This document shows positions 15,491 to 64,000 of a stretch of DNA of 64,000 nt, piece after piece. The position numbers and the translations under genes are program-made. Under the pieces are notes generated by a model. The model saw nothing but the letters and a program-made list of their open reading frames with translations. It had not been told where the DNA came from and ran no database searches. Within the stretch, counting starts at the first letter, position 1. Each line of letters begins with the position of its first letter. This stretch comes from Hexactinellida sp. DTS-2022 (lineage: Eukaryota; Porifera; Hexactinellida), in assembly GCA_028753945.1 (NCBI GenBank), contig JAPNXP010000001.1, forward strand, positions 16,668,501 through 16,732,500, read 5' to 3'.

Positions 15491-16431
15491 TTGTTGTTTC
15501 TTGTGGACTTGGTTATGTGTACAAAATCAAACAAATAAAGAGTTTTCTCTAAGGACAAGTTACTATACACTAGTAAAGATATTTTCTATGATTCTTAGCA
15601 GAAGCATCTACTGTTGCTCTCTAATTTCCTTTTTACTAGCACAACACTGTCATTGGATATTGGTAGTTTCTTCAAGGCAGCTACTGTCAACATTACAAAT
15701 GCTGTCTCCACATTGATATTCTCCATAGCACTTGTCTCAATGAACGGAATATTCAAGCTATCAGCAAATTCCTTTCCTGTTGAAACATCAACAACTCTTT
15801 CGCTCTCCAAGTCACATTTATTGCCCACAAGTATGCACTCAGTTTGTTTGTCTGAGTGCTGAGTGTGCTGACAAAGCTCTTTGTACCAATGTTCTTTTAG
15901 ATTATCGAATGATTGTCTGTTTGTAATGTCGTATACTAGCATTATTCCATGAGCTTGTTGATACAAGTGTGGATGTAATCGACTGAACCTTTCTTGTCCA
16001 TGTGTTTCCAAGATTAGTACTTTTACAAATTTACCATCAATAGTAATTCTTTTAATTATAAAATCAACACCCATGCATGGATTGAAGGCTGGTGACATGT
16101 CTTCGTGATGGAAGACATTGGAGAGACTTGTTTTCCCGACAGAAATATCTCCAATGGGTACGATATCAATTCTTATGTACCTCTCCGCACTCATTGCATT
16201 AACTTTCATCAACCTTTTGATGATAGTATTCAGTTTAATTCTTTTAGATTCAATTGTCTAACTTAATTGAGTGGTTTCATTACATTTCCACTGGCTAGTA
16301 GTTTACTATAACAGCTATCTAATTACAACCATCTTTGTTATCCATTGCATTCAAGGCCATTGAATAAGAATACTCGCCAACTGACTTGTTTAAGAGTTGT
16401 GCAATAATAATTCATTCAAAATTAAAGAATA
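15491..16431. repeat. Tandem duplication unit 1 (Rab copy 1)
   Basis: This segment (coding region plus about 200 bp upstream and 100 bp downstream) matches 17522-18475 almost base for base. The unit continues at 17315-17521 after a transposon insertion at 16432-17314. Confidence 0.88.
15595..16212 (-). CDS. Rab-like small GTPase, degenerate switch II (copy 1)
   Basis: A 205-codon single exon with a Rab-family layout: P-loop GDISVGKTS at residues 21-29, a G2-region MGVDF, G3 changed to ETHGQERF at 69-76 (WDTAGQERF is usual), G4 NKCD at 131-134, G5 ETSA at 159-162, and a C-terminal CFC suited to double geranylgeranylation. Family members cycle between GDP and GTP on membranes to direct vesicle traffic. 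Here the DTAG aspartate is Glu and the following Thr-Ala is Thr-His, and copy 1 also has Leu at residue 68 where Rabs have Trp. Magnesium coordination and GTP hydrolysis may be altered. It is about 97% identical to the copy at 17639-18256. It could be an intronless retrogene of a Rab1/8-like ancestor that then duplicated. Confidence 0.88.
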   Translation of the reverse strand: MMKVNAMSAERYIRIDIVPIGDISVGKTSLSNVFHHEDMSPAFNPCMGVDFIIKRITIDGKFVKVLILETHGQERFSRLHPHLYQQAHGIMLVYDITNRQSFDNLKEHWYKELCQHTQHSDKQTECILVGNKCDLESERVVDVSTGKEFADSLNIPFIETSAMENINVETAFVMLTVAALKKLPISNDSVVLVKRKLESNSRCFC

Positions 16432-17521: not shown

Positions 17522-18475
17522 AGTTGTTTCTTGTGGACTGGTTATGTGTATGAATTTTATTTATGAAATCAAACAAATAAAGAGTTTTCTCTAAGGACAA
17601 GTTACTATACACTTAGTAAAGATATTTTACTAGAATTCTTAGCAGAAGCATCTACTGTTGCTCTCTAATTTCCTTTTTACTAGCACAACACTGTCATTGG
17701 ATATTGGTAGTTTCTTCAAGGCAGCTACTGTCAGCATTACAAATGCTGTTCCCACATTGATATTCTCCATAGCACTTGTCTCAATGAACGGAATATTCAA
17801 GCTATCAGCAAATTCCTTTCCTGTTGAAACATCAACAACTCTTTCGCTCTCCAAGTCACATTTATTGCCCACAAGTATGCACTCAGTTTGTTTCTCTGAG
17901 TGCTGAGTTTGCTGACAAAGCTCTTTGTACCATTGTTCTTTTAGATTATCGAATGATTGTCTGTTTGTAATGTCGTATACTAGCATTATTCCATGAGCTT
18001 GTTGATACAAGTGTGGATGTAATCGACTGAACCTTTCTTGTCCATGTGTTTCCCAGATTAGTACTTTTACAAATTTACCATCTATAGTAATTTTTTTAAT
18101 TATAAAATCAATACCCATGCATGGATGGAAGGCTGGTGACATGTCTTCGTGATGGAAGACATTGGAGAGGCTTGTTTTCCCGACAGAAATATCTCCAATG
18201 GGTACGATATCAATTCTTATGTACCTCTCCGCACTCATTGCATTAACTTTCATCAACCTTTTGATGATAGTATTCAGATTAATTCTTTTAGATTCAATTG
18301 TCTAACTTAATTGAGTGGTTTCATTACATTTCCACTAGCTAGTAGTTTACTATAACAGCTATCTAATTACAACCATCTTTGTTATCCATTGCATTCAAGG
18401 CCATTGAATAAGAATACTCGCCAACTGACTAGTTTAAGAGTTGTGCAATAATAATTCATTCAAAAGTAAAGAATA
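17522..18475. repeat. Tandem duplication unit 2 (Rab copy 2)
   Basis: Nearly identical to 15491-16431. It lacks the Helitron-like element that follows unit 1. Confidence 0.88.
17639..18256 (-). CDS. Rab-like small GTPase, degenerate switch II (copy 2)
   Basis: A 205-codon tandem duplicate of the gene at 15595-16212, with all G-box positions and the CFC tail the same. About eight residues differ. Copy 2 keeps the ancestral Trp at residue 68 (WETHGQERF), has His at 44, Ile at 49, Lys at 55 and Gly at 169, and shows small changes near residues 108-121. Both copies keep an open frame and share the unusual ETHG switch-II sequence, so that change predates the duplication and has been retained. Retention suggests a functional GTP-binding protein rather than a dead copy. 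No promoter element was recognised. Confidence 0.88.
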   Translation of the reverse strand: MMKVNAMSAERYIRIDIVPIGDISVGKTSLSNVFHHEDMSPAFHPCMGIDFIIKKITIDGKFVKVLIWETHGQERFSRLHPHLYQQAHGIMLVYDITNRQSFDNLKEQWYKELCQQTQHSEKQTECILVGNKCDLESERVVDVSTGKEFADSLNIPFIETSAMENINVGTAFVMLTVAALKKLPISNDSVVLVKRKLESNSRCFC

Positions 18476-23336: not shown

Positions 23337-24172
23337 TCAGTAGGATAGTATGTCCTGTCTGTCTTCTGAGACCGCTACAGCCATGCTATCTATCTCCAGC
23401 TCGAGTCCCCGCTTCTCCCTGACCAGTCTCTCTCTCTCGGAGCGCAGTCTCTCTATGTCGCTCCCCAGGACTCTCAGTCTCTTCCTGCAGGTGTCTGGGT
23501 GCTGTCTCGACTGAGCGTTCCTCCGCCACTTCATGAACACGCGCACCTCCTCGTGGCTGCAGTTTGCTGTGTACAGCAGACTCAGGAATGAGTGCAGCTT
23601 CATGTTGGTGACTCGGTTGTCAGTCAGATGCAACCGACTGTATGTCTTCCTGGCAGAGTCAACCGTTACGTTGTTCTTACTCATTAGTTGGATTGGTGTG
23701 TTAGCTATGCTTGTTTGTTGTCTATCTTATTTTTCGCTATTTATACATATATATTTGTTGAAAATTTGCACGTTGGCTCATTATTTAAATCCCCTATTGG
23801 TAATTACTGATTAATACCGTCTGTCATAAGAACATATTATAATTATTATATGTGTTGTGTGTTGTTTGTTCAATTGATATAACTACATTACATTTGAATA
23901 ATATGCTCTATTAATCTCGTGTCCTCAATTGTTATACTTTATTCCCTATTATCCAACTACTGGTATTGAGTTGTGCGACACACTCGTGAATACACTATAT
24001 AGTGTGTTGTTGAATCCAAAACTTTTCTGTGAAAATTATACTTTTCTTAGTAAATTTCTAGGGTCAGTTCATTCATTTTCATTACCAGTAATATACTATT
24101 AGCACATGATACAGTGACACACTGGATAATATCATATTTCATATAACCAATTGTATATTTATGTAAGCACTT
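23303..24172. repeat. Inverted duplication, left arm (contains 115-codon gene)
   Basis: This pairs with 27393-28240 in opposite orientation. The coding part is almost identical, while the upstream part carries scattered substitutions and small indels. Confidence 0.85.
23337..23684 (-). CDS. 115-aa coiled-coil protein, unrecognised (copy 1)
   Basis: A small intact frame, GC-rich against an AT-rich background. Residues 1-70 are mixed and probably globular and helical (KLHSFLSLLYTANCSHEEVR). Residues 70-105 form a highly charged heptad-like helix (DIERLRSERERLVREKRGLE), predicting a coiled coil and dimerisation. I do not recognise the family. The near-exact copy at 27861-28208 differs at one residue (Asn/Thr 23). 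Conservation of the frame in two copies whose flanks have diverged supports a real gene. Confidence 0.72.
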   Translation of the reverse strand: MSKNNVTVDSARKTYSRLHLTDNRVTNMKLHSFLSLLYTANCSHEEVRVFMKWRRNAQSRQHPDTCRKRLRVLGSDIERLRSERERLVREKRGLELEIDSMAVAVSEDRQDILSY

Positions 24173-27392: not shown

Positions 27393-28240
27393 TGCTTACA
27401 CAAATATACAATTGGTTATATGAAATATGATATTATCCAGTGTGTCACTGTATCATGTGCTAATAGTATATTACTGGTAATGAAATGAATGAACTGACCC
27501 TATAAATTTACTAAGAAAAGTATAATTTTCACAGAAAAGTTTTGGATTCAACAACACACTATATAGTGTATTCACGAGTGTGTCGCACAACTCAATACCA
27601 GTAGTTGGATAATAGGGAATAAAGTATAACAATTGAGGACACGAGATTAATAGAGCATATTATTCAAATGTAATGTAGCTATATCAATTGGACAACACAA
27701 CACTTCTTATGACAGTAGGTATTAATCAGTAATTACCAATCAGGAGAGTCCATAAGGGATAAAAATAAAGAGCCAACGTGTTTTTAACAATTATACGTGT
27801 ATAAATAGCGAGAAATAAGATAGACAACAAACAAGCATAGCTAACACAACAATCCAACTAATGAGTAAGAACAACGTAACGGTTGACTCTGCCAGGAAGA
27901 CATACAGTCGGTTGCATCTGACTGACACCCGAGTCACCAACATGAAGCTGCACTCATTCCTGAGTCTGCTGTACACAGCAAACTGCAGCCACGAGGAGGT
28001 GCGCGTGTTCATGAAGTGGCGGAGGAACGCTCAGTCGAGACAGCACCCAGACACCTGCAGGAAGAGACTGAGAGTCCTGGGGAGCGACATAGAGAGACTG
28101 CGCTCCGAGAGAGAGAGACTGGTCAGGGAGAAGCGGGGACTCGAGCTGGAGATAGATAGCATGGCTGTAGCGGTCTCAGAAGACAGACAGGACATACTAT
28201 CCTACTGATTAACCAATCACTTGTATTTCTGCAAATTTAT
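27393..28240. repeat. Inverted duplication, right arm (contains 115-codon gene)
   Basis: This is the inverse of 23303-24172. The arms are separated by about 3.2 kb of transposon-bearing sequence. Confidence 0.85.
27861..28208 (+). CDS. 115-aa coiled-coil protein, unrecognised (copy 2)
   Basis: Inverted duplicate of the frame at 23337-23684. It has an N-terminal mixed region and a C-terminal charged coiled-coil helix, with one residue different (Thr 23). The coding DNA shows only one or two base changes over 348 bp. The adjoining upstream DNA carries visible indels, for instance near 27690-27790, so the coding region is either under strong constraint or being homogenised by gene conversion. 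It lies about 390 bp upstream of the TFIIE-beta start on the same strand. Confidence 0.72.
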   Translation: MSKNNVTVDSARKTYSRLHLTDTRVTNMKLHSFLSLLYTANCSHEEVRVFMKWRRNAQSRQHPDTCRKRLRVLGSDIERLRSERERLVREKRGLELEIDSMAVAVSEDRQDILSY

Positions 28241-38319: not shown

Positions 38320-40653
38320 TCACCAGAAGTCTATTTTCTCGAGATAGCTACCTACAGCAGACCAAACTCCTTCTTTCGTTTCCTTCTCTTGTTTTATTTT
38401 TTGCTTATATTTCTCAAATGGATCATATCCATGTTTAGCGACTTCTGCTAGGCTGTCTACCTTCTCTTTAACTGCGTTTAGGTGATTTACCCTATCTTGC
38501 CATCCAGGTTCTGCTGTTGATTTCTCAGATTCGATTAGGATACGAATATACTGTCCTGTTGAGAGTGGATTTGGCTTTAGAGCGATTTCGTTCAGCTTGT
38601 TAATACTTTTGCGTAGAATTTCTGTGATTCCTAATATCTTTATTTGTACTGCCTCGAACTCATCCACCATCTCCTTAACAATATCATTCGCAGATTTAAG
38701 TTTTCCCGTTGCATCTAGGTATCGTTTCTTTAGATCCTCAGAAGTCTTAGTGACATCTTTACACTCTGTGGTGAAGTAGTATCCCATGTTCTTGTGTAGA
38801 TCCCAATTACATAATCCAATGCATACAGTGCATTTTGCATTACTCCTACCACCTCCATCCATTGCAGCACATCCGTACTTTTTTCCATCATCTGGAATTC
38901 CACACGGATGATGACAAGTGAAGTTACATGTAATGCAGTTTGTTACGTATGTACCCGGGTTGAGTTCATGCTTAACGATAGAATCCTCGGGAACAGTATA
39001 CGTGAAATCTTCGTTTCTAGCTAGATCGGCTTTATGTTGTTGTACAACTTCTACTTCTTTCCTTAGTTGTTCCAATTTGTTCAGGCCCCGCTTGATCTCA
39101 GATTGGAGTCCTTCAATTTGTGTTTCAATTCGTTCTCTTTCTTCTAGAACAGATTTTGTTTGTGTTAGGGATTTAGATTTGATTGTGGCGAAATGATAAA
39201 AAAACTTCTCAAAACTTCTCATGCCCATTTTCCAGAACATTGTAGCGAACTCATCCTCTGCTGTGTTATCATCGAAAATGACTGAATTGTTGAATTTGAA
39301 GAATTCCTGGTATGGCATGCGAGCTTCATTTATTCCATTCAAGACTTGTGGCACTTTTCCGTCCGCGAATGTTAACAATAGGTAAATGTTCTCGCCAATG
39401 TCTTTGCCGAAGAGAGACAGTATTTGATCGAAGATGTATTTCTGTGTAAAGGTAAGTCGTGGAAGAGAAGATTGTGCTACGAACCCCACTGCATCAATAT
39501 GGTCTATTCCATCTTTCCCTGGGACTGTGAAAAATTTGTGAATCTGTTTTGTGATCACTGTATCTCTCTCGATTCCCCTGGTGTCTCCAAAACCCGGCGT
39601 GTCGATTATCGTTAGCGTGTAAGGAACTTTGAACCCTTTTTGATGATGAATGGTATAAGCTGTGATCCAAGAAGTTTGGCTGTATGCTTGGTTCCCTTTC
39701 CCATCTCCATCCTCCGTTACCAACTTGAAACGAAATTTATCTTTATATTCCACACCAAACACATAGTTTATCATGCTATTAATTAGCGTAGTTTTTCCAG
39801 ACCCTGTTGCTCCAAGTATCATTATTACCTTCTCATTCTTGACATATGATCCAGTTGAAGATTTTCCAAACTCAAACTTTTCTATTTGAGAAATTATATT
39901 GCTGGATATCTTGTGCAGATTAAGGTTATATATTTTCACTGGCTCCAAACTTTTGTGACTACACGAGCTCTTCTTTATATTTTCTTTCACTGCACGAGTA
40001 AGTAACGATTGATTCTGGTATTCAATTTCTTCCTCTGATTTGTATACCATCGAAGACACTCTCGAAGATATCTTATAGAATGTCCTTGAAACCAAAGGCA
40101 TTCCCCACTTACTTTCTGCTCGTTTCGGATTTTCTTGGATCTTTGCATCTGTAGTTTTGCCTCTTTTTGGAGTTGGACAAATTGTTTCATCTCCATTACT
40201 AGATTGTATTAGCTGAGATGAATGGTTTATTGTTACCATATTTCCACCTGATGCACCCTGTGTTTCCGTATCTATAGAATCAGCATTTGGTATTTGTGAT
40301 GCCTCCCTTCTCTCAATATGAGAGGATTTTTCTACATCGTCTTTATCGTCTCCACTTGATTGCATTTTCGATGAAGGATTCCTTTTTTCCAAGTGAGAAC
40401 CCAATCCGCCCCGTGATTCGGACTCTATAGGATCAGCACTTCGTGTTTGTGGTAATTCCCTTCTTCCAATAGGATGATTAGTTTGTGCTAACAGCGTTTT
40501 CTGTAAATGAGCGATGTATAAAATCGCCCCTACAAACCCAATAAGAACTGTGGTAAAAAGTAATTCTAGAATCATTGCTGTATAGTTGAGGTGTTCGCTT
40601 ATGACAAATCTATTTATACTTATAGTTTTCATTTGATTCATCATTGTTTGCAA
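38320..40653 (-). CDS. Membrane-anchored AIG1/septin-like GTPase with Cys/His cluster
   Basis: A 777-codon single exon. A membrane segment lies at about 27-49. A low-complexity linker contains a tandem repeat of about 40 residues (65-104 and 116-156). The P-loop is GATGSGKT at 281-288, G3 is DTPGFGD at 351-357, and TFADGK at 428-433 stands in the G4 position. A coiled coil spans about 495-545. A Cys/His cluster at 573-620 (CxxCxxxCHxxC, then C595, C608, C611, C615) is probably zinc-binding, and a second helical region runs to the end. The G domain belongs to the TRAFAC septin/AIG1-like P-loop group, and the cellular role is unknown. Paralogues lie at 52930-55188 and 62684-64000, with a decayed relic at 45602-46716. 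The G domain is far better conserved than the N-terminal linker. Confidence 0.82.
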   Translation of the reverse strand: MQTMMNQMKTISINRFVISEHLNYTAMILELLFTTVLIGFVGAILYIAHLQKTLLAQTNHPIGRRELPQTRSADPIESESRGGLGSHLEKRNPSSKMQSSGDDKDDVEKSSHIERREASQIPNADSIDTETQGASGGNMVTINHSSQLIQSSNGDETICPTPKRGKTTDAKIQENPKRAESKWGMPLVSRTFYKISSRVSSMVYKSEEEIEYQNQSLLTRAVKENIKKSSCSHKSLEPVKIYNLNLHKISSNIISQIEKFEFGKSSTGSYVKNEKVIMILGATGSGKTTLINSMINYVFGVEYKDKFRFKLVTEDGDGKGNQAYSQTSWITAYTIHHQKGFKVPYTLTIIDTPGFGDTRGIERDTVITKQIHKFFTVPGKDGIDHIDAVGFVAQSSLPRLTFTQKYIFDQILSLFGKDIGENIYLLLTFADGKVPQVLNGINEARMPYQEFFKFNNSVIFDDNTAEDEFATMFWKMGMRSFEKFFYHFATIKSKSLTQTKSVLEERERIETQIEGLQSEIKRGLNKLEQLRKEVEVVQQHKADLARNEDFTYTVPEDSIVKHELNPGTYVTNCITCNFTCHHPCGIPDDGKKYGCAAMDGGGRSNAKCTVCIGLCNWDLHKNMGYYFTTECKDVTKTSEDLKKRYLDATGKLKSANDIVKEMVDEFEAVQIKILGITEILRKSINKLNEIALKPNPLSTGQYIRILIESEKSTAEPGWQDRVNHLNAVKEKVDSLAEVAKHGYDPFEKYKQKIKQEKETKEGVWSAVGSYLEKIDFW

Positions 40654-40760
40654 TGACTGTTATATTCTACTTTCAATATTATGAAAACCAAATTCCTAAA
40701 TATTGATTTAATATTTCCAGTATTTGATAAATCAGTTTTATTCTTGTACAATGTACTAAA

Positions 40761-52894: not shown

Positions 52895-52929
52895 TGGGTT
52901 TCTGCAACTAAGATCACTATACAGTTGCA

Positions 52930-55188
52930 ATGCTTAATGAAATACTAATTGCATTTATACTTATTTGCATGGTGGGGGGACTGTTCTATATAATTATAAT
53001 GCAAATGGAACTACTAATAGAGAGATCGGTGCATTCGATGCCAATCATACCATCAAAGGAATCACAGGTAAATGGAAATGAAACCTCTATTGTAGCTGGT
53101 GAGCATTCCACGGATGGTTCAAAAGAATACCTTGCAAATAAATGCAAACTCCAAAGAGAACCGTATTCACCTGTAATACGTCAGAGATATAAGAAAGGTC
53201 TACCAATCTGTACAGAAAGTGCATCTCTCGAAACGAGTCAGCCATGTTGTACCGATTTAGATGATGTACAGCAATATCCCATTGAACCATTTCTATCTTC
53301 CTTTACAACAAATATGCTCCAAAACACGCAAGGGATACAAACCCAAAACTTGCAGTATCCTACTATCGATGATGATAAGAAATTAAACCATGAGAAGAAA
53401 CAGAAAAAAAACATTATTTCTGGTTTCTGGGGAAAAGTGATTCCTTTCAAAACAACGACAGAAAATGAAATCATGCCGCAAGAATTAAACGCGAAAATGA
53501 TAGAAGAAAAATTTAAACATGCCCTCATAAAGCGTTCAACCTTGTACGAGAATATAGGCACACTGAAGTTATACAATTTGAGATTGAAACAGGTGTCTAC
53601 CGATCCTAAATCCAGGCTTAGAAAATTTGAATTTGGTAAAAAGAGCCTAAATGCTTTTGTAAAGAAGGATAAAGTAATAATGATAGTAGGCGCGACAGGG
53701 TCAGGCAAGACAACACTAATCGATAGCATGATAAACTATGTGTTTGGTGTGGAGTATGAAGATAATTTTCGTTTCAAGTTGGTAACGGAGGATGGAGATG
53801 GGAAAGGAAACCAAGCATACAGCCAAACTTCTTGGATCACAGCTTATACTATTCATCATCAAAAAGGATTCAAAGTTGAGCACACTCTAACGATAATCGA
53901 CACACCTGGTTTTGGAGATGTAAGGGGAATCCAAAGAGACGTAGAAATTACGAAACAAATACACAACTTCTTTACTACTGCAGGAAAAGATGGAATAGAC
54001 CATATTGACGCAGTGGGGTTCGTAGCACAATCTTCTCTTCCACGACTTACCTTTACACAGAAATATATCTTCGATCAAATACTGTCTCTCTTTGGCAAAG
54101 ACATTGGTGACAACATTTACCTATTATTAACATTCGCGGATGGAAAAGTGCCACAAGTCTTGAATGGAATAAATGAAGCTCACATGCCATACCAGGAATT
54201 CTTCAAATTCAACAATTCAGTCATTTTCGATGATAACACAACAGAGGATGAGTTCGCGACAATGTTCTGGAAAATGGGCATGAGAAGCTTTCAAAAGTTT
54301 TTCGATCATTTTTCAAAAATTGCATCTAAATCCCTAACACAAACTAAATCAGTCCTAGAAGAGAGAGACCGCATTGAAACACAAGTAGAAGGACTTCAGA
54401 GGGAAGTTAAACACGGTCTCAACAAGTTGGAAAAGCTTAGGAAAGAAGTTGAAGTTGTGGAACAGCACCACGCAGATCTCGCTATAAATAAAAATTTTAC
54501 TTATACGGTTGAAGAGGATGGTATCGTGAAGCATGAGGTTGAACCGAATAATTATGTAACGAATTGCCTTACTTGCAACTTTACATGCCATTATCCATGC
54601 AGAATCCCAGATGATGGAGACAAATTTCGTTGTAGTGCAATGAATTGCGGCGGAATAGATAACGCACAATGCAATATGTGTCCAAACAGATGTTCATGGA
54701 AGCTGCATAAGAATATGAAATATTACTTCACAACTGAACGGAAACAAGTGACTAAAACCTCCCAGGAGCTGAAGACCAGATACCTAGATGCAACTGGGAA
54801 GGTGAAATCGGCGAACGATATCATCCAAGAAATGGTCAATGAGTTTGAAGCTGTACAGATCAAAATAATCGGCATAACAGAAGTCTTGCGTAAGAGCATT
54901 AATAAACTGAATCAAATCGCTCTCAAACCCACAAACATTTCAACCAGTCAATATATCCAAATTCTAATCGAAGCAGAGAAATCAGCAGGTGAGCCGGGTT
55001 GGACTGATCGAGTGGAACATTTATTGCACGTAAAGGGAAAGGCTGACAATTTGGCTGCAGTTGCGAGGCAAGGATTTGACCCGTTTTTGGAATATAAACG
55101 TAAGATACAAGAGGAAAGAGAAAACAATGAAGGTGTGTGGTGTGCTGTTGGAAATTACCTCCAGAAAATACAGTATTGGGCTGTTTAG
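52930..55188 (+). CDS. Membrane-anchored AIG1/septin-like GTPase with Cys/His cluster (paralogue 2)
   Basis: A 752-codon single exon. The membrane anchor lies at about residues 4-27, and the linker (28-235) is unrelated in detail to that of the 38.3-kb paralogue. The P-loop GATGSGKT is at 254-261, DTPGFGD at 324-330, TFADGK at 401-406, a coiled coil at about 465-520, and the Cys/His cluster starts TNCLTCNFTCHYPC at 544-557. From about residue 245 to 470 it is nearly identical to the other copies, down to long stretches of DNA, while the anchor and linker differ. The anchor plus cytosolic G domain suggests a membrane-tethered, possibly oligomerising GTPase. Function is unknown. A TATAAATA lies just upstream. 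Confidence 0.84.
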   Translation: MLNEILIAFILICMVGGLFYIIIMQMELLIERSVHSMPIIPSKESQVNGNETSIVAGEHSTDGSKEYLANKCKLQREPYSPVIRQRYKKGLPICTESASLETSQPCCTDLDDVQQYPIEPFLSSFTTNMLQNTQGIQTQNLQYPTIDDDKKLNHEKKQKKNIISGFWGKVIPFKTTTENEIMPQELNAKMIEEKFKHALIKRSTLYENIGTLKLYNLRLKQVSTDPKSRLRKFEFGKKSLNAFVKKDKVIMIVGATGSGKTTLIDSMINYVFGVEYEDNFRFKLVTEDGDGKGNQAYSQTSWITAYTIHHQKGFKVEHTLTIIDTPGFGDVRGIQRDVEITKQIHNFFTTAGKDGIDHIDAVGFVAQSSLPRLTFTQKYIFDQILSLFGKDIGDNIYLLLTFADGKVPQVLNGINEAHMPYQEFFKFNNSVIFDDNTTEDEFATMFWKMGMRSFQKFFDHFSKIASKSLTQTKSVLEERDRIETQVEGLQREVKHGLNKLEKLRKEVEVVEQHHADLAINKNFTYTVEEDGIVKHEVEPNNYVTNCLTCNFTCHYPCRIPDDGDKFRCSAMNCGGIDNAQCNMCPNRCSWKLHKNMKYYFTTERKQVTKTSQELKTRYLDATGKVKSANDIIQEMVNEFEAVQIKIIGITEVLRKSINKLNQIALKPTNISTSQYIQILIEAEKSAGEPGWTDRVEHLLHVKGKADNLAAVARQGFDPFLEYKRKIQEERENNEGVWCAVGNYLQKIQYWAV

Positions 55189-57231: not shown

Positions 57232-57576
57232 GGTTGTTTGATTTAAATCAATGATTTTTATTAATAAAATCATAATTTAAATAAAAAATCTGATTTAAAT
57301 CAAAAATATCCGATTTTTATGATTTAAATCAGATTTTTTATGTCTATTATTTTTGCGAAAAGTAAAGAAATACATTGATAATGAGTCAAATTACATTGAT
57401 AATGAGTCATTATCAATGTAATTAATCCATTAGCCAAATAATATACGCCAGTGTGATATAGATTGCAAAAAAAAAAATTAAAATCAAAATTCTGATTTAA
57501 ATCAAAAAATCGGATTTAAATCAATAAAATCGGATTTTTTTATTAAAAAAAAAATCATGATTTTTATCAACCCTGC
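57232..57576. mobile_element. Palindromic MITE (CAGGGTTGTTTGATTTAAATC termini)
   Basis: The ends CAGGGTTGTTTGATTTAAATC and ATGATTTTTATCAACCCTG are inverted. The interior is built from TGATTTAAATCA and ATCGGATTTAAATC blocks. This type of element is widespread in animals, and its hAT affiliation is inferred. Confidence 0.65.
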
Positions 57577-57619
57577 CTTTACACAGACAGTGAAACACAA
57601 TACAAATGGGTCAGATGTG

Positions 57620-57960
57620 TTATGAAACTTATGATCCTCAGGAGTACTTGGGGTTGAGGAGCCCTGGGTAGGGCTGACCATGACTACGGGTCTTGGTTTC
57701 ACGAGCCGGCAGTACGACTGGTAACCATAGTCTAGGACTACAGATACATGGGCAGTACGGCACTCGCAGGAGCCACGGGCTGGAGCGAGAGGTGCGGCAG
57801 TACGCATGGTGGTCGAGGGTTACCCTCCTGATGAGTCCCTGTGATGGGACGAAACCCACACATAACTTCCCTATGAGTTGAGGTCGACTAGAGCGTCTAG
57901 TCTTCATACTAGTACGTGGCCTCATCTCATAACATATGTCACAGAACCAAGACCCATTTT
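57620..57960. mobile_element. GC-rich hammerhead-bearing repeat (retroelement candidate)
   Basis: An abrupt GC-rich island in AT-rich DNA that contains the hammerhead motif at 57804-57864. Imperfect inverted sequences border it: ATGGGTCAGATGTGTTATGA near 57606 and the inverse of ATGGGTCTTGGTTCTGTGAC near 57958. No reverse transcriptase is present. Hammerhead-carrying repeats in animals include Penelope-like elements and short retrozyme-like or satellite repeats, so this is probably a non-autonomous member. Open frames crossing it are not supported. Confidence 0.55.
57804..57864 (+). ncRNA. Hammerhead self-cleaving ribozyme, type III topology
   Basis: All core positions are present in order. 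A GUC cleavage triplet ends at 57814. Stem I is GAGGG/CCCTC (57815-57819, 57823-57827) with a TTA loop. CTGATGA lies at 57828-57834. Stem II is GTCCC/GGGAC (57835-57839, 57846-57850) with loop TGTGAT. GAAA lies at 57851-57854. Stem III pairs GGT with ACC next to the core and extends to about eight pairs with two single-base bulges. Predicted self-cleavage is between 57814 and 57815 of the plus-strand transcript. Activity is inferred from the match to the known consensus. Confidence 0.85.
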
Positions 57961-62683: not shown

Positions 62684-64000
62684 TCACCATAAATTAATTT
62701 TCTGAAGATAATCACCAACAGCCGACCAAACTCCTTCTTTCGTTTCTTTCTCTTCCTTGATTTTTTGCTTATATTTCTCAAATGGATCAAAGCCTTGTTT
62801 TGCGACTTCTTCTAGGCTGTCTACCTTCTCTTTAACTGCGTTTAAGTGATTTACCCTATCTTGCCATCCAGGTTCTGCTGTTGATTTCTCAGATTCAATA
62901 AGGATACGAATATATTCTCCTGTTGAGAGTGGATTTGGCTTTAGAGCGATTTCATTCAGCTTGTTAATACTTTTTCGTAGAATTTCTGTGATTCCTAATA
63001 TCTTTATTTGTACTGCCTCGAACTCATCCACCATCTCCTCAATAATATCATTAGCAGATTTAACTTTACCACTGGCATCAAGGTATCGTTTCTTTAGATC
63101 CTCAGAGGTTTTGGTGACATTTTTTCGCTCTGTAGTGAAGTAGTATCTCATGTTCTCGTGTAGATCCCAATTACATCTTCCATTGCATACAGTGCATTTG
63201 CATTACTCTGACCACCTCCATCCATTGCTGCACATCCGTACTTTTGTCCATCATCTGGAATTCCACACGGATGATGACAAGTGGAGTTACATGTCAAACA
63301 GTTCGTTACGTATGTACCCGGGTTGAGGTCATGCTTAACGATAGAATCTTCATCAACAGTATACGTGAAATCCTTGTTTCTAGCAAGATCTGCTTTATGT
63401 TGTTGTACAACTTCTACCTCTTTCTTTAGTTGTTCCAATTTGTTCAGCCCCAGCTTGATCTCAGATTGAAGACCTTCTATTTGTGTTTCAATTCGTTCTC
63501 TTTCTTCTAGAACTGATTTTGTTTGTGTTAGGGATTTAGATTTGATTGTGGCGAAATGTTCAAAAAACTTCTCAAAGCTTCTCATGCCCATTTTCCAGAA
63601 CATTGTAGCGAACTCATCCTCTGCTGTGTTATCATCGAAAATGACTGAATTGTTGAATTTGAAGAATTCCTGGTATGGCATGTGAGCTTCATTTATTCCA
63701 TTCAAGACTTGCGGCACTTTTCCATCCGCGAATGTTAACAATAGGTAAATGTTTTCACCAATGTCTTTGCCGAAGAGAGACAGTATTTTGATCGAAAATG
63801 TATTTCTGTGTAAAGGTAAGTCGTGGAAGTGAAGATTGTGCTACGAATCCCACTGCGTCAATATGGTCTATTCCATCTTTCCCTGGAACTGTGAAAAATT
63901 TATGAATCTGTTTTGTGATCTCTGTATCTCTCTCGATTCCCCTAGTATCTCCAAAACCTGGTGTGTCGATTATCGTTAGCGTGTAAGGAACTTTGAATCC
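62684..64000 (-). pseudogene. AIG1/septin-like GTPase paralogue 3, two frameshifts, runs off right edge
   Basis: The minus strand encodes the same protein as 38320-40653 from just after the P-loop region to the C-terminus (stop at 62684). The DTPGFGD block is present near 63960-63940. Compared with the 38-kb copy there is one extra T near 63786 (TATTTTGATCG against TATTTGATCG) and one missing T near 63198 (CATTTGC against CATTTTGC). Each shifts the frame, splitting the gene into 64000-63790, 63741-63148 and 63151-62684. Everything else is highly conserved, so the lesions are recent or are base-calling errors in T runs. The P-loop lies beyond the window. In the 38.3-kb paralogue this region contains coiled coil and Cys/His cluster, and both are recognisable here. 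Confidence 0.85.

Follow-up and report, generated by a model that had tools for sequence, protein, structure and literature searches.

The hammerhead ribozyme predicted in the window (the whole 64,000-nucleotide stretch of sponge DNA analysed here) lies, with a probability that we put at roughly 0.8, in the solo LTR of an animal LTR retrozyme, each LTR of which has a type III hammerhead. Such an element, ~830 bp long, non-autonomous and without coding capacity, would work in the way proposed below. What would be new is the presence of the LTR retrozyme design in an animal genome; as far as the available portions of the literature go, this design has been described so far from plants. The features of the window copy are collected in Table 1.

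Table 1. Parts of the hammerhead-bearing LTR and its flanks, in window coordinates.
Feature	Position	Strand	Basis
Type III hammerhead ribozyme (predicted); predicted cleavage after C57814	57807..57860	+	RF00008
GTC of predicted cut	ends at 57814	+	direct reading
Stem I, 5 bp, loop TTA (GAGGG-TTA-CCCTC)	57815..57827	+	direct reading, RF00008
Core CTGATGA	57828..57834	+	direct reading, RF00008
Stem II, 5 bp, loop TGTGAT (GTCCC-TGTGAT-GGGAC)	57835..57850	+	direct reading, RF00008
Core GAAA	57851..57854	+	direct reading, RF00008
Stem III 3' strand, CCCACA (CCAC in most relatives)	57855..57860	+	RF00008 marks, fold
Retrozyme solo LTR (TGTTATGA...CTCATAACA), 317 bp, 53.6% G+C	57618..57934	+	ends match family TGT...ACA
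Left target-site duplication GATG	57614..57617	.	worn, 3/4 versus right side
Right target-site duplication TATG	57935..57938	.	flank reading; window copy = row L009

The presence of the hammerhead motif is confirmed. When the whole window was scanned with cmscan, a single match rose above the gathering score; it is to Hammerhead_3 (RF00008), covers 54 of the 54 model positions, and scores 53.9 bits (gathering score 48.5; E-value 4.1e-9). The conserved core and three stems are all present, with stem III as the open one. An earlier note on this DNA, made from the letters alone, had placed here a hammerhead with a complete core, a type III topology and a bulge in stem III, inside a GC-rich island; direct reading and the RF00008 alignment bear out its coordinates and each of these points, and the element indeed stands at the G+C content given in Table 1 versus 35.2% for the window. 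Non-standard pairs in the alignment are confined to stem III, which is disturbed because GAAACCCAC replaces the GAAACCAC that most relatives have at the bulge, and given this bulged stem the window hammerhead may be weak or inactive. The opposite strand of the copy contained no ribozyme in a both-strand Rfam scan of the window.

The surroundings of the ribozyme identify the feature as one worn solo LTR rather than a satellite or a complete element. Read with its flanks, the copy is GATG / TGTTATGA...CTCATAACA / TATG; its first 11 bases give no alignment to relatives, and from base 12 onward it is 92.8% identical to one relative (L010, over 319 columns) and 88.0% identical to another (L011, over 326). 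A DNA search of the genome with the island returned 50 matching pieces, the window's own place included, and the others fall within 57629-57950. The earlier note had asked whether genomic copies share the flanks from 57620 to 57960; they do so over 57629-57950 at most. Likewise, where the note had proposed an unannotated ribozyme-bearing retroelement or satellite, the first half survives; a satellite or a lone motif is ruled out by the fixed ends and target duplications of the copies.

Several other features of this region deserve mention in their own right. Just upstream of the solo LTR, at 57302-57541, lies an A+T-rich inverted repeat with 38-nt arms that are 89% complementary. Within the LTR, a motif, GGCAGTACG, is repeated between successive LTR hairpins (window 57706-57806), and at C1:17175.8-17176.5 kb (L027) a 44-bp unit based on this motif is repeated in tandem; we take the motif to resemble one strand of a sarcin-ricin-type motif. 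Farther away, the window holds related long GTPase-like frames in both orientations, at 38320-40659 (-), 52912-55188 (+) and 62684-63840 (-), the first two with the P-loop GATGSGKT and the third showing the later part only. It also holds two tandem, nearly identical small Rab-like GTPase frames at 15595-16257 (-) and 17639-18301 (-), and, ~4 kb apart, two 129-codon frames that are nearly identical but oppositely oriented, at 23337-23726 (-) and 27819-28208 (+), probably a repeat.

The hammerhead is far from unique in this genome. The earlier note had called for a genome search with a hammerhead model, and such a search across 112.4 Mb in 18 contigs yielded at least 68 type III (RF00008) matches, at least 64 of them over the cut-off. 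This count is a lower bound, in that scoring covered 68 of the 12319 first-look candidates and the 68 do not include the copy in the window. The type I hammerhead model gave 0 matches genome-wide, in a search whose controls likewise gave nothing. The loci fetched were 64 of these 68 and additional ones from the island DNA search; from them we collected by pattern 64 distinct motifs with an intact core; the pattern required at least 4 of 5 stem I pairs, at least 3 of 5 stem II pairs and the first pair only of stem III, and it excluded broken-core copies (L083, L087, L090 and L049). Among these 64 motifs the stem III pairs after the first are formed in 63, 60, 58 and 56, and the position beyond those four is paired in 29; TA, GC and AT types are all seen at one stem III pair, and three pairs of stem II show CG as well as TA. 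Stem I is near-invariant, with 61-64 of the 64 motifs paired at each position and changes that are one-sided only, so that covariation tells us little there. The covariance support that the earlier note had looked for among genomic copies is therefore found as compensated types in stems II and III, and not in stem I. It might be argued that a hammerhead-like sequence arose by chance in a GC-rich repeat, for which the bulged stem III of the window copy could be cited; this explanation is refuted by the 68 or more genomic matches together with the compensated changes, and we regard its probability as negligible.

Two further groupings emerged from the same search. Eight of the 68 hammerhead places fall within 0.91 Mb of C1 (13.00-13.91 Mb; L066, L067, L068 and L073 were fetched), several of them with identical scores, and this cluster has perhaps been spread by a larger repeat. 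A second hammerhead-bearing family, which starts TAGTATCGGG and has other ends, was seen at L005, L008, L019 and L076 (C1:15507755-15510808, C1:3998963-4002016, the C1:17364.5 kb region and C11:14269980-14270930); target duplications were looked for at these four loci and not found. The exact ribozyme pattern occurred 0 times in viral contigs and 0 times in prokaryote genome contigs, two collections outside which other animals fall. As to the host, Ets-domain matches, seven in all at about six places of the genome with two of them pieces at a single place, fit an animal, Ets being an animal marker. A wnt search gave 0 matches, as did its controls; together with the small genome and the 35% G+C of the window this would suit a glass sponge, O. 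minuta being one that lacks Wnt and has 36% G+C (PMC10280926). An 18S stretch is present as well (L098).

The evidence that these hammerheads belong to an LTR element comes from the ends of the copies and from what lies between them. Family copies start TGT and stop ACA. Both LTR ends were readable in 48 cases, in 36 of which no hairpin follows the end. Exact 4-bp duplications flank 18 of these 36 end-to-end LTRs and a 3/4 match flanks 6 more, as compared with 0.6% exact and 8.1% at 3/4 in a control in which the left flank of one copy was re-paired with the right flank of another. The 12 LTRs with no recognisable duplication include four rows (L004-, L012-, L050- and L070-) that border an internal region, where no duplication is expected, and one locus (L020) was assigned to the hairpin group by a loose test. 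A single complete copy, LTR-inside-LTR and duplicated at its outer flanks, was found. This copy, C15:3148004-3148837 (minus), reads TACT, an LTR of 330 bp, 174 bp of internal sequence, a second LTR of 330 bp and TACT again, and its two LTRs have one difference between them. It is non-coding, the longest stop-to-stop frame being 88 codons in 834 bp, and its inside ends in a polypurine tract (PPT), GGCTAAAAAGGGAAGGTGA, immediately before the 3' LTR. The hallmarks of LTR retrozymes found here include, accordingly, a type III hammerhead within direct LTRs of ~300-400 bp, 4-bp target duplications (3/4 only in the window copy itself) and no coding capacity.

The spacing of the ribozymes would define a compact RNA. 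The predicted cleavage sites lie 504 bases apart in the C15 copy and 486 apart in an array at C1:7627.8-7629.9 kb, hereafter the C1 array. Folded as a circle, the 504-nt unit reaches -203.7 kcal/mol versus -168.3 +/- 7.1 for 40 dinucleotide shuffles, making it 5.0 SD more stable, and the circular fold includes the hammerhead stems as well as the hairpin described below. It is at this point that a retrozyme of the kind already known from animals, or a satellite of that kind, has to be weighed: such an element would have a type I hammerhead, tandem repeats and a Penelope-like helper. The animal host and the tandem and inverted arrangement of the C1 array agree with it, yet the type I model was silent (as were its controls), and the LTRs, PPT and 4-bp duplications found with our type III ribozyme contrast with animal retrozymes, which are described as carrying a type I hammerhead without LTR, primer-binding site (PBS) or PPT in the available text of PMC7229834 and PMC7761336. 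The complete LTR copy largely refutes this explanation, and we consider it extremely unlikely.

The sequence that follows the LTR is unusual for an element of this architecture. A tRNA primer site is expected to start TGG; none was found by eye after the LTR, and with it the tRNA-Met site that marks LTR retrozymes is missing from what we could read. Instead of a TGG start, L050 continues with TAAGTACTCC..., which is a hairpin arm. More generally, the LTR end leads into a hairpin whose stem has 7-9 pairs and whose loop is structured; its far arm goes on as the complement of the LTR end. In a hand-chosen set of seven internal regions (L010, L032, the C1 array, L050, L058, L093 and L095), pairs 1-7 of the hairpin are formed in 7/7 and pair 8 in 6/7, and more than one standard pair type occurs at pairs 2, 4, 5, 6 and 8; these regions hold 5 distinct 8-nt arms, and with so few the number of independent changes may be small. 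Excluded from this count were an irregular hairpin (L039), a broken one (L049), and three (L045, L059 and L060) that lie in the middle of an inverted dimer, where they would be palindromic anyway.

Such inverted dimers, in which the hairpin is followed by an LTR in reverse, are seen in some copies, and six inverted arrangements were examined. Exact outer 4-bp duplications surround four of the six: CGTA (L045), TGAA (L060), CTAT (the C1 array, with five LTRs in the order ++---) and ATAC (L093, where the first LTR end is worn). In a fifth arrangement (L059) the outer duplication matches at 3/4, and the sixth, in which LTRs from two subfamilies form the inverted pair (L004/L032), lacks an outer duplication (GTAT versus TCAC). 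Since an exact duplication surrounds the whole, at least four arrangements were inserted as dimers. These dimers would most simply come from the hairpin snapping back while the element is being reverse-transcribed. The self primer of Tf1, an element that primes its own reverse transcription, is said (Atwood-Moore, 2006) not to be removed.

A candidate for the element that would provide the enzymes is found in the same genome. The 16-mer box that spans the PPT and the LTR start, AAAGGGAAGGTGATGT, occurs at 7 places (6 exact, 1 mismatched), and the reversed pattern at 0. Four of these places are retrozymes, three of them in one array, and two exact ones (L099 and L100) are mutually alike and are not retrozymes; at L100 an open frame of 119 codons ends in a stop ahead of the box. 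Among the six retrozyme insides whose right border was read, the box is exact in two (L050 and the C1 array) and diverged in four (L070, L077, L095 and L093). The reading of the candidate helper covered its ends and a 1.1-kb piece. Its C6 copy has LTRs of 187/187 bp with 1 difference between them, is flanked by ATGT duplications and has the ends TGTGAT...ATCACA. Upstream, the 1.1-kb piece gives a match to Integrase_H2C2 (E 1.2e-19) and one to rve that stays below the 32.6 cut-off (25.2 bits, E 2e-5), and a stop codon within the integrase region shows that this copy is not intact. The PPT-LTR box, the ends and the duplication length are thus common to this element and the retrozyme, and the former also shows the integrase piece. 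As in LTR retrozymes, then, PPT and LTR start are held in common with a resident, integrase-bearing LTR element, which is the probable helper of the retrozyme and would supply it in trans; going by its integrase domains, and by these alone, we would call it gypsy-like.

These observations also bear on two alternatives in which the hammerhead-bearing units are not the products of an LTR-type cycle. The first is a MITE-kind DNA transposon, mobilised by a Ginger-like or other DDE transposase, in which the hammerhead would be a passenger or would free the RNA from host transcripts. Ginger elements have TGTNR...YNACA ends and make 4-bp duplications, and single units of our family, with short inverted ends on both sides and 4-bp duplications, would suit such a mechanism, as would the inverted dimers, which use two left ends and are likewise flanked by 4-bp duplications. 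However, a Ginger-like transposon has no direct LTRs and moves by excision with a single DDE transposase, and against it stand the direct-repeat copy with 1 LTR difference and one outer duplication, the PPT immediately before the 3' LTR, the recurrence of the PPT-LTR box in an element that bears an integrase and has its own LTRs, and the retention of the hammerhead where other parts of the copies look very different by eye. We therefore judge a DNA transposon unlikely. The second alternative is an endogenised viroid-like or delta-like circular RNA that replicates itself, the insertions being occasional reverse transcripts. A compact, structured unit of 486-504 nt with a hammerhead is what one would expect of such an RNA, the inverted dimers resemble snap-back products, and both polarities have been seen for plant retrozymes (PMC4918200, available portions). 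Nonetheless, the LTR ends, the PPT box common to the resident retrotransposon and the regular 4-bp duplications point to LTR-type insertion, and in the both-strand Rfam scan, which covered the window copy, the other strand is without a ribozyme; we consider this explanation highly unlikely.

Returning to the LTR retrozyme and its probable helper, the start of the latter suggests how both might be primed. In the C6 copy the LTR is followed by TTAAGTATTTAGTTAT, which could pair over 14 nt with part of that same LTR; 0 of 1000 single-base LTR shuffles reached this length, the shuffle maximum being 11. L103, the other helper copy in which a 5' end could be read, is worn, and no self-complementary primer site was apparent in it by eye. 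A helper that may prime itself and a retrozyme that carries a hairpin would fit together, and the retrozyme is probably self-primed and would use this helper.

These features can be assembled into a life cycle. The element would be transcribed through both LTRs, and cleavage by the two hammerheads would release a unit RNA of ~486-504 nt, as their spacing suggests, which a host ligase would close into a circle, by analogy with plant and animal retrozymes. On the anatomy described above, the hairpin right after the LTR would take the place of a tRNA as primer for reverse transcription, its 3' arm lying on the primer-site arm beside the LTR end, with reverse transcriptase and integrase presumably supplied by the gypsy-like element with the self-complementary primer site. 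The cDNA would be inserted with the 4-bp duplications that we observe, and a hairpin left unresolved would lead to the insertion of snap-back inverted dimers such as those found. Solo LTRs arise as a standard outcome of recombination between the LTRs of LTR elements, and the window copy may well have been left in this manner. We hesitate to press the most specific form of this scheme, in which a circular RNA carries its own primer as the hairpin after the LTR and has dropped tRNA priming, is matched to a self-priming gypsy-like helper, and by snap-back deposits inverted dimers and plus/minus arrays through normal 4-bp integration; we hold it tentatively, at a little under even odds.

It is informative to compare the sponge element with known systems, as these are described in the available portions of the papers cited. 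The closest are the LTR retrozymes of plants (Cervera et al. 2016; PMC4918200), which have a tRNA-Met primer site, 4-bp duplications and a PPT-LTR box common with gypsy elements. Shared with them are the type III hammerhead in LTRs of ~350 bp, the non-coding inside, the 4-bp duplications, the frequency of lone LTRs, the PPT-LTR box common to a resident LTR retrotransposon, and a sequence that is highly variable outside the ribozyme. The sponge element differs in its animal host, in having a hairpin instead of the tRNA-Met site, and in its inverted dimers joined at the hairpin. It is also smaller, with an inside of 174 bp and a unit RNA of 486-504 nt, whereas plant LTR retrozymes measure 600-1000; the G+C content of the unit is 54%, as against over 55% in plant retrozymes (PMC7229834). 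The ribozyme itself has a stem I of 5 bp with a 3-nt loop and a stem II of 5 bp with a 6-nt loop, and plant type III motifs have a 6-bp stem I with a 6-8-nt loop and a 4-nt loop II (PMC7936874). With the non-LTR retrozymes of animals (PMC7229834, PMC7761336) it has in common the host kingdom, a hammerhead, a small unit RNA and tandem copies.

Type III hammerheads in animals are unusual but not unprecedented (PMC7936874, PMC6155905). The topology is known from delta-like agents, termites and dipterans, the termite examples being isolated motifs, and as described in the available text of PMC7936874 helices I and II of these motifs are longer and show loop pairing, whereas those of the sponge have short stems I and II and lie within LTRs. 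In mammals, a discontinuous type III hammerhead occurs in Clec2 genes (PMC6155905). The TRIM elements of bivalves (PMC6934838) resemble the sponge family in being short, non-coding LTR elements with no conventional primer site and with both solo and tandem forms; no helper was found there according to the available portion of that paper, and the word hammerhead is absent from its main text.

With regard to priming, the helper recalls self-priming elements of the Tf1 kind (PMC4600332, PMC6317226, available portions), since the bases after its LTR are complementary over those 14 nt to its own LTR. This likeness lies in the LTR complementarity; in Tf1 it is the 5' end of its own mRNA that primes, unlike in the retrozyme, where both arms are joined as a hairpin after the LTR. 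The literature that we searched lacked most subscription papers and all preprints; within it we found no report of an animal LTR retrozyme, none of a hammerhead combined with self-priming or hairpin-primed reverse transcription, and none of a hammerhead ribozyme in Porifera, with a single paper, unrelated by its title, for Amphimedon.

An LTR retrozyme in an animal would suggest that the combination of LTR and hammerhead is older than plants, has arisen more than once, or has crossed between kingdoms, and it bears on the origin of viroid-like circles. The probable helper offers a system for testing directly what primes a hammerhead circle that has no tRNA site, and the inverted dimers with target duplications provide a countable genomic trace. 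If the proposed scheme is true, the sponge family would represent a hammerhead-circle element that replicates by hairpin-primed reverse transcription.
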